Source: Chthonomonadaceae bacterium
GTDB lineage: Bacteria; Armatimonadota; Fimbriimonadia; Fimbriimonadales; Fimbriimonadaceae
Reading direction: 5' to 3'
Assembly: GCA_015709495.1 (NCBI GenBank)
Contig: CP054189.1
Span: forward strand, 124,001-188,000
Length of the DNA stretch: 64,000 bases
The position numbers and the translations under genes are program-made. Shown one piece after another: positions 2,666-50,728 of this stretch; within the stretch, counting starts at the first letter, position 1, and each line of letters starts with the position of its first letter. Under the pieces are notes generated by a model. It made no database searches. It saw only the letters and a list, made by a program, of their open reading frames with translations, and was not told the origin of the DNA.

Positions 2666-2779
2666 AAAGCCACTCTCCAATGTGCTCGATGCATGCTTCC
2701 GCTATCGCTATGCAACTGTCAAAGTGCTCTTCATCGGCCACCGATACGGGCGGGCCCGTACAGTCGGCGGCAATTGGAA

Positions 2780-2808
2780 ATGATACCTCCGTCAAGGCGG
2801 GCTGTCAA
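2780..2808 (-). promoter_or_regulatory. Sigma70-type promoter of 23S rRNA
   Basis: On the minus strand the -35 box is TTGACA (2808-2803), then a 17-nt spacer, then a -10 box TATCAT (2785-2780). Transcription would start near 2773, giving a leader of about 108 nt. The 13 nt covering the -35 box (2802-2814) are identical to those of the 16S promoter at 50965-50977. A second TTGAC lies inside the spacer in both promoters. A boxA-like stretch (GAGCACTTTGACA) occurs in the leader near 2725-2737; that reading is tentative. Confidence 0.85.
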
Positions 2809-2890
2809 GGGTCCCGCGAGATTTCCTCAAGGAGTTTCCGATTTCCCTCGGAAGACCTCTCGCCCGAAGACACATCACCCCTAACATAGC

Positions 2891-2924
2891 ATCGGGCCAG
2901 AGGCGTCTCCGCCCCCAGCCCGAT
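2891..2924. terminator. Nested dyad between PEP-CTERM gene and 23S promoter
   Basis: An outer 7-bp stem (ATCGGGC with GCCCGAT) encloses an inner GGCG/CGCC stem. It lies 36 nt past the stop of the upstream minus-strand PEP-CTERM gene and about 85 nt before the 23S -35 box. It has no strong T-tract, so a terminator role is inferred from position and stem strength only. Confidence 0.4.
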
Positions 2925-2959
2925 TGCTCCCTTGACCCCCGAAAAGGTCGAAGGATGAC

Positions 2960-3658
2960 TTACTTGCGGCGTCGGCGAGCGAGCGCCACCAGCGCGAGAC
3001 CGAGACCGGCCATCGTCGTGGGCTCAGGCACAACCGAACCTTCGATGCGATAGGCAGGCATGTTGGCGTACGCGAAGGTCGATCCCTGACCGAAACCGAG
3101 GCCGGGATTCGCCTGATATGCGTCGGTGCCGCCGGGGAACGCGCCAGCATAGTTCGAAGTGCGAATGCCGACTTGGCCACCGCCCGAGAAGTTCAACCGA
3201 CCCATGACACCCAAGTAGTAAGTGCCCGGGTTGTTGATCACGATGCTGACGGGAAGCGTTACAAGCGCGGAATTCGCCTCGCCGGTGTAGGCCGTGTTCA
3301 CGGTTGCGGAACCCGAAGAGACCGACTGGCTTCCAACATCGCCCGTAAGGCTGGAGCCTGCAGCTGCGACGCTGCTGAAGATCTCGACTCGATAGAACTC
3401 GATAGCCGTAAACGACGTGAAGCCGTTCCAGCCACCCATGAATGCATCCACGCTCGTGATCGTGGTCGGTCCGGTTACATCAAAGTTATCGATGACCGCG
3501 ATGTCGTAGGTCGCGAAGTCAGGCTCGAACTGCTGCGAAGCACCCGTGCCCGTCCCAGAAACGTCCGCCGGGTTCGCACCGATTTGGTCCATGATCACGA
3601 CCGCCGAAGCGAACGAACTGACGGTAGCTGCAAGACAAAGAACTGCAATTCTCTTCAT
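2960..3658 (-). CDS. PEP-CTERM sorting domain-containing secreted protein
   Basis: A secreted protein of 232 aa. The ATG at 3658 was chosen over an upstream in-frame start because it follows a clear GGAGGAGA ribosome-binding site and opens a signal peptide (MKRIAVLCLAATVSSFASA). The C-terminus is a textbook PEP-CTERM anchor: VPEPTTMAG, a short hydrophobic stretch (LGLALVALA) and RRRRK. In this family exosortase (EpsH/XrtA type) cleaves the anchor and attaches the protein at the cell surface or in an exopolysaccharide matrix. The body (about residues 20-205) is Gly/Ser/Thr-rich and beta-predicted, with no enzyme motif that I recognise. No exosortase is in the window. Its exact role is unknown. 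Confidence 0.9.
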   Translation of the reverse strand: MKRIAVLCLAATVSSFASAVVIMDQIGANPADVSGTGTGASQQFEPDFATYDIAVIDNFDVTGPTTITSVDAFMGGWNGFTSFTAIEFYRVEIFSSVAAAGSSLTGDVGSQSVSSGSATVNTAYTGEANSALVTLPVSIVINNPGTYYLGVMGRLNFSGGGQVGIRTSNYAGAFPGGTDAYQANPGLGFGQGSTFAYANMPAYRIEGSVVPEPTTMAGLGLALVALARRRRK

Positions 3659-3938
3659 TTTGGATTGTCTCCTCCCGAATTCAATTTCGAGCGTGGATCT
3701 TATCGGTTTGACAGAGGTCCTCCAGCAAGACGACGAGGTTCCACGCCCAAGACATTGTGCAACCAATCTCCTGAATTTCGGTCCGTTAATATTCTTTCTG
3801 TGACAAAACCTAGCATTTGAACTAGGTGATCTTCGGAGGGACCCGTTCGATGCCGCGATCGGGCCTTCAGGCATCGACAGAAACTGGGAAAGACCCGATC
3901 GTGCAGGGACGCGCCGCCGCATTCCAGAATCTGGAGAT

Positions 3939-9789: not shown

Positions 9790-9817
9790 AGGCGGGTAGG
9801 GACCTCCCTACCCGCCT
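9790..9817. terminator. Intrinsic terminator between convergent genes
   Basis: A perfect 12-bp stem (AGGCGGGTAGGG with its complement) and a 4-nt loop, between the stops of the PEP-CTERM gene (plus) and hpd (minus). The T-tract is weak (CGTCTTTCG), so it could act in both directions. Confidence 0.75.
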
Positions 9818-34566: not shown

Positions 34567-35292
34567 CTACCTCTTAGCGACCCAACGAAGGGCCCTTCGA
34601 ATCATCTCTACGAACTCGCTTTCAGAATACGATTCCTTCGTGTGTCCGAGCGCGGTGTACCACGCCCTTCCGCCCTCGAACTCATGGCACCAGGTCACCG
34701 GATGATCGGCGCCCATTCGCCCGCCGTTGTAAGTCGCCTCGTCGATGCGCATCAGGACGTTGACGGAGGATCGGGGATTGGATCGGAAGTCATACCACTC
34801 GTCCGTCCGTACCCAGGTCTTCGGAAGGCGGCTCACCGTCGGGTGATCGGGCTGCTCGATGTGGAGCGTCGCCTTCTGGATCGCCGGGTGGCTGAGGAAG
34901 TACGCTCCCACGAGCTTTCCATACCACGGCCAGTCGTATTCGGTGTCGCTGGCGGCGTGGATGCCCAGATAGCCTCCTCCTCGCCGCACGAACCGCTCCA
35001 TCGCGCCCTGCTGCGCGTCGTTCAAAACGTCGCCCGTCGTCAGGAGGAACACCAGCACGTCGACTTGAGCAAGCGCTTCGTCGGTGAACCTCGCGGATAA
35101 CTCGGTGAAGGACACATTGAAGCCTTCGGCCGAAGCCATCCTTCGAAACATCTCTTGCCCCTCAGGGATCGAGTCGTGACGAAAGGCAGCCGTCTTCGAA
35201 AACACCAGGACGTTGAGTTTTCCGTTGCCGGCCTCGGTAGTAGGGTTCGCGAGAACTAGGCAAGTGGCAAGAAGGGAGGTTAGGACCGACAT
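34567..35292 (-). CDS. ThuA domain-containing secreted protein
   Basis: A 241-aa protein with an N-terminal signal (MSVLTSLLATCLVLANPTTEA) and a glutamine-amidotransferase-like ThuA fold: VLVFSKTAAFRHDSIPEGQEMF, DVLVFLLTTGDVLNDAQQGAMERFVRRGGGYLGIHAASDTEYDWPWYG, PVTWCHEFEGGRAWYTALGHTKESYSE. ThuA proteins take part in disaccharide (trehalose-like) metabolism and accompany exported Gfo/Idh/MocA enzymes in Planctomycetes. The catalytic Cys of amidotransferases is not expected in this family. A TACAAT box ends 6 nt before the ATG. Confidence 0.9.
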   Translation of the reverse strand: MSVLTSLLATCLVLANPTTEAGNGKLNVLVFSKTAAFRHDSIPEGQEMFRRMASAEGFNVSFTELSARFTDEALAQVDVLVFLLTTGDVLNDAQQGAMERFVRRGGGYLGIHAASDTEYDWPWYGKLVGAYFLSHPAIQKATLHIEQPDHPTVSRLPKTWVRTDEWYDFRSNPRSSVNVLMRIDEATYNGGRMGADHPVTWCHEFEGGRAWYTALGHTKESYSESEFVEMIRRALRWVAKR

Positions 35293-39377: not shown

Positions 39378-40541
39378 ATGATCTGTGCGATTCTGCTGGC
39401 ATCCATGACGGCAGTTCAGGCAAATGATATGAAGGAACTCCTGGGAGCAGTATCGTCGGCGCGATTGCGGGCCGGGGTCGAAAAGCTCGCCTCCTTCCCC
39501 ACGCGCAATACCCTCTCACCCACACTGAGCGAGGCGGCGGAGTGGCTTGCGGGGGAATACCGCAAGATTCCCGGAATGCAGGTCGAAGTCATGAAGTACG
39601 TCGCCCCCAAGAGCAGACGAGTTCCGGACGACACCGAAGTCGTGCAGGTCGTCGCCACTTTGCCGGGTACGACGGACCGGCGCGTCCTTATAGGCGGCCA
39701 CCTTGATTCCCTGAACTTGCGCGTCGATCCGAAGTCGGGGATTGCGCCCGGAGCCAATGACGACGCGAGCGGGACGATCCTCGCGCTCGAAGCGGCAAGG
39801 GTCCTTTCAACTCGCAAGTGGCGACACACGATGGTCTTCGTAGGCTTCACGGGCGAGGAACAAGGGCTTCTCGGCGCGACCGCGCTTGCGGCCCGTGCGA
39901 AGGCCGAAAACTGGCAGATCGACGCCGTGCTCAACAACGACACCGTAGGATCGAGCAGCAACCTGAACGGCCAGAGCGATCCCCACCGAGTCCGGGTCTT
40001 TAGCGAAGAAGCCGAGACCCACGCGAGCCGAGAGCTCGCCCGCTTCATCGAATGGGTCGTTCGGCAGAACATGAGCGACTTCTCCGTCAAATTGGTTCTG
40101 CGCCGGGACAGGTACGGAAGGGGCGGCGACCACACGCCGTTCGCAAACGCAGGGTTCCCCGCCATCCGATTCATCGAGGTCCACGAGGAGTACACGCGCC
40201 AGCACACACCGGACGATCTCCCGGAGCACATGGATTGGGAGTACCTCGCGCGGGTCACTCGAGCTAACGTCGCCGCACTCGCAACGCTCGCCAATGCGGG
40301 TCCGCAACCCAAGAGAGTTCGCTTGGCCAACGACCAATCGCATCACGCGACCCTCCTTTGGGACGCGGAGCCTGGAGTGTCCTACAGAGTCTTCTGGCGC
40401 GATACCGCCTCCGCCACATGGAATGGGTCGAAGGAGGCAGGGGAAGCAAGCAGGTTCACGCTTGAAAACATCAACAAAGACGACCACTTCTTCGCGGTAG
40501 GCTCGGAGGGCGGCGTGCCTGTTCCGCCCGGGAGTCCGTAG
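39378..40541 (+). CDS. M28 family zinc aminopeptidase, secreted
   Basis: A 387-aa exopeptidase with signal peptide (MICAILLASMTAVQA). The two-zinc site is visible: His108 (GGHLDS), Asp128 (GANDDASG), general base Glu160 with Glu161 (GFTGEEQG), Asp188 (LNNDTVG) and the C-terminal His in TRQHTPDD. It would release N-terminal amino acids in the periplasm or outside the cell. The last 80 residues form a fibronectin type III-like domain (KRVRLANDQSHHATLLWDAEPGVSYRVFWRD). GAAGGA lies before the ATG at 39378; an upstream in-frame ATG is rejected. Confidence 0.92.
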   Translation: MICAILLASMTAVQANDMKELLGAVSSARLRAGVEKLASFPTRNTLSPTLSEAAEWLAGEYRKIPGMQVEVMKYVAPKSRRVPDDTEVVQVVATLPGTTDRRVLIGGHLDSLNLRVDPKSGIAPGANDDASGTILALEAARVLSTRKWRHTMVFVGFTGEEQGLLGATALAARAKAENWQIDAVLNNDTVGSSSNLNGQSDPHRVRVFSEEAETHASRELARFIEWVVRQNMSDFSVKLVLRRDRYGRGGDHTPFANAGFPAIRFIEVHEEYTRQHTPDDLPEHMDWEYLARVTRANVAALATLANAGPQPKRVRLANDQSHHATLLWDAEPGVSYRVFWRDTASATWNGSKEAGEASRFTLENINKDDHFFAVGSEGGVPVPPGSP

Positions 40542-40588
40542 GCCCTTCGTCCCTCGTTTGCAGCTTCAGATTTCCATTGGTCCCATTC

Positions 40589-40782
40589 GGGTGAACTCCG
40601 GACACCCCTTCACGTACTATCGGTTGAACCCCTTTCGAGGGGACGGCACAGGGCCCGAACGGGCTCAGGCCCCAAGAACCAACAAAGCGTAGATGCGGGG
40701 CGGAAGTCGGCGACGAAAAGACTTCCGCCCAACTTTCGGCCCGTCGGCGAACTGAGTACATCGCCCAGGCGGGCCTTTTTTT
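40589..40782 (+). ncRNA. Structured RNA of unknown class ending in intrinsic terminator
   Basis: A chain of stems with no ORF: GGGTG/CACCC (40589-40607), CCCC/GGGG (40629-40642), GCCCG/CGGGC (40653-40664), an 11-bp perfect stem GGGCGGAAGTC (40698-40730), then the terminator. TACTAT at 40615-40620 could be a -10 box, in which case the RNA starts near 40627. It does not match the riboswitch, SRP, 6S, tmRNA or RNase P signatures I know. It could be a small RNA or a leader that once controlled the proteasome gene downstream. The whole gap 40542-40782 is otherwise empty. Confidence 0.55.
40738..40782 (+). terminator. Intrinsic terminator, U-tract is IS target site
   Basis: GGCCCG/CGGGCC outer stem with inner GGCGA/TCGCC, followed by seven T (40776-40782). 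The T-tract is the left copy of the IS target duplication. Confidence 0.75.
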
Positions 40783-42085
40783 GTTAGTGTCCCGGCTCGT
40801 GGTGTAGAAAGAGGCGCCATTCCGTCCGGTTGCTTTGTGAGAAGTCAACGGAGGACGAGAATGGCAAACAATAGCATAGCGCTCTTGGAGGGCGCGGAAG
40901 TTAGGGACATGCTTCGAGAGTTGGTCAAAGACGCACTTTCGGAGCTGATGGAACTCGAGGTGGAGGCTCAAAGGGAGGCTTCAGACCGGAAGACCTGGAG
41001 AAACGGGTACCGCGACCGCAGTTGGAAGACGCGCGTGGGAGACGTAGAACTCCGGATTCCCAAGCTCCGCACGGGCAGCTACTTCCCGAGCTTTCTTGAG
41101 CCTCGCCGGGGCGTGGAGAAGGCTCTCGTGAGCGTAATTCAGGAAGCGTACCTGCAAGGGGTTTCCACCCGGGCGGTGGACGATCTGGTGCAGGCTCTGG
41201 GAGGCTCCGGGATCTCCAAGAGCGAGGTCTCTCGCCTTTGCCTGGAGGTCGAGGGGCGGGTTCGGGAGTTCCTGGAGCGTCCGCTCGAGGGGAGCTTCCC
41301 TTACCTCTGGCTGGACGCTACCTACGTGAAGGTTCGCGACGGCTCTCGGATCGTGTCGAAGGCGGCGGTGGTGGCGATCGGACTGAACGAAGAGGGGCGC
41401 CGCGAGGTTTTGGGGATGCGCGTCGGGCACGCCGAGACGGAGGAGTTCTGGACGGAGTTCCTGCGCTCGGTCCTCGACCGGGGCCTTCGGGGGACGAGGC
41501 TGGTGGTCTCAGACTCCCACTCGGGGCTCAAGAAAGCGATCGAGCGCTGCATGGGCTGCCAGTGGCAGCGCTGCCGGGTGCACTTCATGCGCAATGTGCT
41601 GGCGCGGGTTCCCAAAGGGCGCAAGGAGATGGTGGCCTGCCTGATCCGCACGGCTCTGGCTCAGGCCGATATAGAGACCACCAAGGCCAAGTGGCTGGAG
41701 GTCGCCGCGCATCTGGAGGAGACCTTTCCGGAGGCGGTTCGGCTCATGCGGGAGGCGATGGAGGACGTGCTGGCGCACCGGGCGCATCCGCCGGGTTTGT
41801 GGCCGCAACTGGCCTCGACCAACGGGCTGGAGCGGCTCAACCGGGAGGTGAAGCGCCGCGCGGACGTGGTGCAGATATTCCCGAACGAATCCGGGGTGGT
41901 GCGGCTGGTGGGAGCGATCCTCATGGAGCAGCACGACGAATGGCAAGTCTCCCGGCGGCAGGCTCCCAAGGAGAGCCTCGGGCTGCCGAGCACGAAAAAC
42001 GACGCGCTGCTCGCAAGAGCAAGCGGATGGTGATATCATGGAACAGGCGGATGGCGCCCACTACACCACGTCCTGGGACACGACC
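40783..42085 (+). mobile_element. IS256-family insertion sequence with intact ends
   Basis: A 1303-bp element. Left end GTTAGTGTCCC-N4-CGTGGTGTAG and right end (inverted) GGTCGTGTCCC-N4-CGTGGTGTAG, both continuing to GGCGCCAT, form imperfect terminal inverted repeats of about 37 bp. It is flanked by exact 8-bp direct repeats CTTTTTTT (40775-40782 and 42086-42093), the target duplication length typical of IS256. One intact transposase gene fills it. Intact ends and perfect duplications suggest recent insertion. Confidence 0.92.
40861..42033 (+). CDS. IS256 family transposase
   Basis: A 390-aa mutator-type DDE transposase. The catalytic residues are Asp152 (WLDATYVKV), Asp218 (VVSDSHSGL) and Glu324 ([13 protein letters not shown]), with the C/H-rich region [19 protein letters not shown] between the second Asp and the Glu, as expected. 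The N-terminal DNA-binding part ([25 protein letters not shown]) is intact. The ATG at 40861 gives [10 protein letters not shown]; an ATG 8 codons upstream is also possible. No frameshift or internal stop, so the element may be active. Confidence 0.96.
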
Positions 42086-42127
42086 CTTTTTTTTGGTTCG
42101 CGCCCCCAATCTCTGCGCCAAACCGGT

Positions 42128-42133
42128 TATAAC
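42128..42133 (+). promoter_or_regulatory. -10 box of leaderless type for proteasome alpha gene
   Basis: TATAAC, 6 nt before the ATG. The expected -35 region (about 42105-42110) lies 20 nt outside the IS right end, so the insertion has not removed the promoter core. Confidence 0.5.
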
Positions 42134-42139
42134 GAGAGA

Positions 42140-42826
42140 ATGTTCACGCCCTATCAGTGGCAAGAAGCGATGAGCAACCGCGCCGAGTACGTCGAGTCGC
42201 GCTTGACTCTGGGCGCGCCGGTGGTTGCGGCGTCATTCGAACCCGGAATCGTCATGCTTACCTACCGACGCCAGGCTCGAAAGCTGTTTGAACTCTACGA
42301 CCGGTTGGCTTTTGGCGGCGTGGGGCAGCAGTCCGACATCGAGTCGATCCGGCTGGCAGCGCTGGACTTTGCGCATCGCGAGGGGTTCGCCCGGAGTGAG
42401 AACGACGTCACGTTGCACAGGGTCATCCATGCTATCAGCGCTCCGATGAAGGCCGCGTTCGCCGACTTCTCGTCCCCGCCCGTCATCGCGATGGCGCTCT
42501 TTGCCGAGTTGGGCAGTACCATGGAAGAGGACAAGTACGGAATCGTCGAGTATGACGGCGACTTCGTAACGACCGGGCATTGCGCTTGCGCCACCCCTCA
42601 CCGGGGCGAGAAAGAAGGCGTCGCCGCAAAGCTGCATGCCATCAAGCCCAAGGGCCTTGACATTGACAAGGCCGTCGAAACCCTGAAAGAGATTTGGGTC
42701 AGCTCGTTTCAGGTGTTCGAAAAGTCCGACGGCGACAAGGAGGCTCCGCTTCGTCTGGAAGCTGCGATCCTCGAAAGAGACTTCCGAAAGGAGGCCCGGT
42801 TCCGAGTGCTCGACGTCGAGCCCTGA
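42140..42826 (+). CDS. prcA: 20S proteasome alpha subunit homologue
   Basis: A 228-aa protein resembling actinobacterial PrcA. From my memory of the family, the N-terminal region lines up with M. tuberculosis PrcA: YQWQEAMSNRAEYVESRL with the SPEQAMRERSELARKGI segment, KLFELYDRLAFGGVGQQSDIESIRLAAL with [28 protein letters not shown], then the DVT in the following helix. The end (LRLEAAILERDFRKEARFRVL) matches the PrcA tail SLEVAVLDANRPRRAFRRI. Alpha subunits form the outer gating ring and have no catalytic Thr1. No prcB, mpa/arc, dop or pafA gene is in the window. The ATG at 42140 was chosen by homology; the frame runs back into the IS. Confidence 0.8.
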   Translation: MFTPYQWQEAMSNRAEYVESRLTLGAPVVAASFEPGIVMLTYRRQARKLFELYDRLAFGGVGQQSDIESIRLAALDFAHREGFARSENDVTLHRVIHAISAPMKAAFADFSSPPVIAMALFAELGSTMEEDKYGIVEYDGDFVTTGHCACATPHRGEKEGVAAKLHAIKPKGLDIDKAVETLKEIWVSSFQVFEKSDGDKEAPLRLEAAILERDFRKEARFRVLDVEP

Positions 42827-47763: not shown

Positions 47764-48020
47764 GTTGTTCGTCCTGGGTGCGATTCGGGTGCCAGCTCAG
47801 CGGACGTCTTGCATGCCCACTCCACGCAGGCTCGTTGTCCGGCGAGGGCAGACCCTCAATACACCTTGTACGTCAACTTTCGACGTCTGTCTGTGACGCC
47901 TGTCATGTTTTGCCTCTTCTCGGCGGAATCCTCAAGCGCTCCCAGGCACATTTCGTCGAAATGCGTCACGTTTCCGTGCGGTTCGAACATATGCTAAGTA
48001 AATGTCAGTTAGGAGGGCAT

Positions 48021-49215: not shown

Positions 49216-50728
<1,513 letters not shown>

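Follow-up and report, generated by a model that had tools for sequence, protein, structure and literature searches.

The window analysed here is the whole 64,000-nucleotide stretch at positions 124,001 to 188,000 of contig CP054189.1, from a Chthonomonadaceae bacterium whose genome (G000) is a single contig of 2.90 Mb. Between a gene for an M28-family peptidase and a homologue of the proteasome alpha subunit it holds a row of hairpins at 40589-40782, which the original prediction took for an unclassified structured RNA ending in a strong terminator. The features of the locus are as follows, with coordinates counted from the first letter of the window.

39378-40541, + strand: M28-family peptidase gene (Pfam PF04389, E 9.1e-35; the start codon is our choice)
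40589-40607, + strand: 5' hairpin of the stretch, holding three of the four differences from the second genome of the species (G094), in which it is not predicted
40615-40620, + strand: candidate -10 box TACTAT (family -10 motif), with a predicted small-RNA start near 40626
40629-40642, + strand: small hairpin CCCCU-UUCG-AGGGG (centroid fold)
40645-40671, + strand: hairpin around GGGCCC-GAAC-GGGCUC (centroid fold)
40698-40730, + strand: perfect 11-bp hairpin with a loop of 11 (fold and inverted-repeat scan)
40738-40782, + strand: predicted intrinsic terminator, a 13-pair hairpin with a 2-nt bulge, then U7 (fold, T-run and terminator surveys)
40775-40782, + strand: left copy of the target-site duplication, CTTTTTTT (readable also as 9 bp from 40774)
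40783-42085, + strand: IS256-family (Mutator) insertion sequence of 1303 bp (PF00872, E 1.1e-113; NF033543 transpos_IS256, E 6.2e-98)
42086-42093, + strand: right copy of the target-site duplication, CTTTTTTT (flank comparison and the empty site of G094)
42128-42133, + strand: -10-like box TATAAC, 6 nt before the proteasome alpha ATG (sequence; motif in relatives)
42140-42826, + strand: proteasome alpha-subunit homologue (TIGR03691, E 3e-18, below the curated cut-off; PF00227, E 0.037)

The terminator with U7 was borne out. Six runs of at least six T occur on the two strands of the window, and the hairpin at 40738-40775 is the most stable of those preceding them, at -22.2 kcal/mol against -10.6 kcal/mol for the next. 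It is GC-rich and directly followed by U7, as in other intrinsic terminators, and the element is identical in G094. It differs from them in its 10-nt loop, its 2-nt bulge and the extra hairpins upstream, and also in that its U-tract is here interrupted by an insertion sequence with target duplication. A simple scan that allowed loops of 3-8 nt does not have this element, with its loop of 10 nt, on its list. These features suggest that 40738-40782 would act as a terminator in vivo.

We surveyed 464 kb of the genome for comparable sites, using a simple gene caller of our own (407 genes, 89% coding), and obtained 13 intergenic hairpins below -11 kcal/mol that are followed by at least five T. Eight of them lie 13, 20, 27, 31, 31, 94, 196 and 200 nt past the closest stop on their strand, the value of 196 nt being that of 40738-40782; the remaining five comprise one site after the 16S rRNA gene, one antisense to it and three with no same-strand gene nearby. 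The looser terminator count, taken below -11 kcal/mol, was set aside as mostly noise, with 12 real sites where 40 shuffles gave 9.2 on average and 16 at most. Below -18 kcal/mol before at least five T there are seven intergenic sites, whereas 40 shuffles gave 0.925 on average and 4 at most. Three of these seven strong sites (146158, 258045 and 352540) lie 27-31 nt past a stop, two lie about 200 nt past one, one follows the 16S gene and one is antisense to it, while the weaker sites 206909 and 383406 are 20 and 13 nt past a stop. The pair at about 200 nt consists of 40738-40782 and the terminator of a gene that we take, from its sequence, to be ftsZ-like. This second terminator, a strong one with T6 at about 479480-479760 of G000 and outside the window, is also preceded by further hairpins, and its region is another candidate for a structured 3' UTR or a small RNA.

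The run of stems seen in the original prediction stood in part: the perfect 11-bp hairpin and the terminator are sound, whereas the 5' hairpin at 40589-40607 is disrupted in G094 by the three changes there and probably lies outside the RNA. Taken whole, 40589-40782 is more stable than its shuffled counterparts (z -3.23, with none of 200 shuffles equally stable), and 40626-40782 reaches z -3.63 (-3.02 with 50 shuffles). Adding the upstream flank reduces the score to -1.83, and 40541-40790 folded as minus strand scores -0.87. As a control we folded 580 overlapping intergenic windows of 157 nt, on both strands and with 50 shuffles each, 40626-40782 included; 11 others are at or below -3.02, eight next to the 16S and 23S genes, two over an inverted repeat at 9790-9817 and one at 34701. 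In a sample of 112 coding windows, two have a z that reaches -3.2. The structure of the stretch is real and uncommon, and it is not extreme. Perfect inverted repeats with arms of at least 11 and loops of 3-20 number two in the 64 kb, against a mean of 0.325 and a maximum of 1 in 40 shuffles. The other of the two, at window positions 9790-9817 (12 bp, loop of 4, intergenic), has no T-run of five directly after it and is possibly a terminator without a U-tract. As for coding capacity, the claim that the stretch contains no ORF is right in substance, since only short frames occur and none is convincing: one of 20 aa from an ATG at 40693, and one of 44 aa from a TTG at 40558 that differs between the window genome and G094. 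The 20-aa frame (40693-40755) was considered as a leader peptide; no Shine-Dalgarno-like sequence was seen before it, and no homologues were found.

The Rfam search agrees with the earlier view that no known RNA family fits: no match to the stretch reached a gathering score, and at E<=10 Rfam 15 returned five matches with E values of 1.9-4.8, far below the gathering scores. The models for RNase P RNA, tmRNA and SRP RNA have no match at 40589-40782, and these RNAs have genes of their own elsewhere in the genome. Over the whole 64-kb window Rfam gives two rRNAs only, 23S (1-2665) and 16S (49217-50728), which share a strand but are separated by about 47 kb that includes protein genes. The window yielded no tRNA, and no 5S reached the Rfam gathering score; the 23S match is cut by the window edge, so that a 5S gene may lie beyond it.

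The stretch had been described as preceding the proteasome gene, which holds for the layout without an insertion; in the window genome the next gene is a transposase, because an IS256-family element has inserted between the two; the original prediction makes no mention of this gene. Its boundaries were set from matching copies in the genome, which run from query position 24 to 1326-1328 and so place the ends of the element at window positions 40783 and about 42085. There are 12 matches in all, eight near full length (the window copy among them) and four that are pieces of interrupted copies. Like other IS256 members, the element has a transposase of the family (NF033543), imperfect terminal inverted repeats and a short target duplication, here accompanied by an empty site, and nothing unusual was seen in the window copy. 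Copies at two other loci (L068 and L073) are likewise flanked by 8-bp repeats. G094 lacks the insertion, and its T-tract passes without a break into the sequence upstream of the proteasome gene. It follows that the element inserted into the U-tract of the terminator, which stayed whole because its target was duplicated. A preference of this element for terminators was considered and dropped, as the other copies, some read on both flanks and the rest on one, do not follow a U-tract. Elsewhere in the genome one copy of the same element has inserted into a second, and yet another is divided in two by other DNA of about 1.2 kb (G000:C1:255217-257826 and 1840205-1842735).

On the far side of the insertion, the product of 42140-42826 is matched by PDB proteasome alpha chains with E 1.5e-12. 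Among named genomes this protein matches a record labelled Chthonomonas sp. at 45% identity and a Fimbriimonadaceae bacterium at 44%, with one more match that is weak and partial, so that the host most likely belongs to Armatimonadota, family Fimbriimonadaceae. The alpha gene and the beta homologue (G000:C1:537419-538081) are far apart in this genome and both score below the curated cut-offs; the two matches are adjacent in G037, G038 and G040-G044, genomes that belong to other families of the order. When we compared the upstream regions of 26 relatives (30 loci less that of the window genome and L029, L032 and L033, which come from other families), a motif of the type GCGTAGAATC / ACGTATAAC appeared no more than 14 nt from the proteasome ATG in 23 of the 26, with a total score of 267.7, where none of 24 shuffled sets exceeded 198.1. 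The TATAAC box at 42128-42133, which scores only in the top 1.5% of positions with the relatives' motif, is on this comparison the presumed promoter in use. A start predicted from this box means that proteasome transcripts would lack the structured stretch.

Two covariance models were searched in related genomes. R1, with 202 positions, gave matches at E<=1 in six of 85 family genomes; only G000 (1.3e-75) and G094 (1.3e-66), both of this species, are below 0.01, and the weak rest have E values of 0.0103, 0.101, 0.123 and 0.333. R2, with 157 positions, matched at E<=1 in two of 40 genomes, a set that does not hold G094: G000 itself, and a weak match at 0.267 that is the best of the 39 relatives. 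Each model was built on essentially one sequence and would therefore miss distant homologues. The weak matches were rejected as homologues, being partial or low-scoring, and the one in G015 (L002) lies inside an open frame that presumably encodes a peroxiredoxin. A blastn search of 61 genomes, the own one included, returned the locus itself and three short matches (E 6.8e-4 to 0.008, in three genomes including the own one) that we judged to be chance, lying in or near open frames, and blastn against plasmids and phages gave no match. The M28 peptidase itself has matches at E<=1e-60 in 63 of the 85 genomes of the family, the window genome among them. We followed the synteny of this gene over 30 loci, two of which belong to this species; of the other 28, L096, L099 and L100 were left out for a misread stop and L103 as truncated, and no comparable element was seen downstream of the M28 orthologue at the 24 relatives' loci.

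Within the species, G094 differs at four positions in 40541-40782, all upstream of 40607 and three of them at 40600, 40604 and 40606, and 40607-40782 is identical in the two genomes. This distribution would favour a small RNA in the downstream part, but 123 of 717 intergenic 171-nt windows (17%) are unchanged too, so that the lack of change says little, and the unchanged block extends past the insertion to 42304. We therefore dropped conservation between the two conspecific genomes as evidence. Divergence from G094 is very uneven along the window, at 21% and 10% in the gaps 47764-47899 and 2666-3938 and 0.5-2% in several others, which suggests recombination tracts.

How, then, is the stretch to be read? 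The original prediction offered a cis regulator of the proteasome gene as one possibility, and a riboswitch or attenuator leader might be argued for from the shared strand, from the attenuator-like ending in a terminator, and from G094, where 45 nt separate the end of the T-tract from the gene. The -10-like box after the terminator, placed as in most relatives, makes this reading very unlikely, since it leaves the stretch outside the predicted 5' UTR. In addition, no such element was seen when the 500 nt before the proteasome gene of 29 relatives were read by eye, R1 and R2 do not find it in other species, no Rfam riboswitch matches it, and in the window genome the insertion parts it from the gene by 1.3 kb. 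It is harder still to believe in a divergent 6S RNA that the Rfam model misses in this bacterial family. RF00013 matched none of 13 genomes of the family (f1) and three of eight from other families of the order, two of these above the cut-off, so that an undetected 6S could exist; 6S RNA, however, is defined by a single long hairpin with a central bulge, whereas the centroid fold here is a row of separate hairpins, RF00013 does not match the stretch, and neither covariance model finds a homologue in other f1 genomes. GC-rich sequence that folds by chance, with no function apart from the terminator, would agree with the equally low scores of the 11 other intergenic windows, with the loss of the 5' hairpin in G094 and with the modest score once the flank is added, but the rarity of perfect 11-bp hairpins in the window speaks against it, and we consider it unlikely.

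The main rival is an independent small-RNA gene, and we give it a real though less than even chance. It would be a species-restricted gene of about 157 nt in the gap between the M28 and proteasome alpha genes, transcribed from its own promoter at TACTAT, starting near 40626 and ending at the terminator, with four hairpins and with a terminator that tolerates a transposon in its U-tract; its product would act on other RNAs or on a protein. The fold of 40626-40782 is in its favour, and so is ACGTACTATC, the best -10-like site on the + strand of 40541-40790 (top 0.23% of window positions), which borders the folded part on its 5' side; but this site is weak, because chance alone should give about 0.5 such sites over that length, and it is given without a -35 box. 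The 196 nt between the M28 stop and the terminator likewise favour a separate gene, yet the terminator of the ftsZ-like gene also lies 200 nt downstream, so that a 3' UTR of this length is not exceptional, and the M28 orthologues at L091, L092 and L093 show, by eye, a GC-rich hairpin no more than about 60 nt past the stop. The sole other strong intergenic hairpin-and-T site in the 64-kb window that fits a gene end follows an RNA gene, that of 16S rRNA; against this, the genome's SRP, tmRNA and RNase P genes have no run of at least five T within 300 nt of their 3' ends, and such a terminator is therefore not a mark of its RNA genes. The failure of R1 and R2 to find a homologue outside the species also counts against the small RNA.

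The explanation that we place first, at about an even chance, is that a transcript entering from the side of the M28 peptidase gene ends in the stretch, which would supply its structured 3' end and its terminator and insulate the proteasome promoter. For it speak the strongest T-run hairpin of the window, the same in G094 and one of the seven sites below -18 kcal/mol, the -10-like box that follows the terminator, and the U-tract that served as insertion target. Against it stand the distance from the M28 stop, when three strong sites lie at 27-31 nt, the -10-like site at the edge of the fold, and the extra hairpins, which exceed what a terminator needs. Around the observed hairpins, U-tract, insertion boundaries, empty site and -10-like box, the course of events may be pictured as follows. 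RNA polymerase, having started upstream of 40541, would cross the 241-nt gap past the M28 stop at that position; the 11-bp hairpin at 40698-40730 would fold in the untranslated 3' end, and the GC-rich hairpin at 40738-40775 together with U7 would free the transcript at about 40782. Before the insertion, when the T-tract would have ended 45 nt from the proteasome alpha ATG, the terminator may have kept a near-leaderless proteasome promoter apart from upstream transcription, and the later insertion into the U-tract would have duplicated the tract and left the terminator intact.

A terminator with a structured part upstream is ordinary in kind, is confined to one species as far as visible, and makes no new class; neither this reading nor that of a small RNA alters a general picture. 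Bacterial small RNAs can derive from 3' UTRs, one example being outlined for the glutamine synthetase mRNA (PMC9731577). Like 3'-UTR-derived and intergenic small RNAs, the stretch is structured, ends in a terminator and follows a protein gene; it differs in that it was found in one species only. Among titles and abstracts we found no dedicated small-RNA paper on the phylum, nor one that joins Fimbriimonas and sRNA, and a small RNA at this locus would thus be a candidate in a phylum for which such literature searches return no dedicated study. If the stretch is a terminator, it offers a clear natural case of an insertion sequence that landed in the U-tract of a terminator, where the duplication of the tract leaves the hairpin with a U-run.
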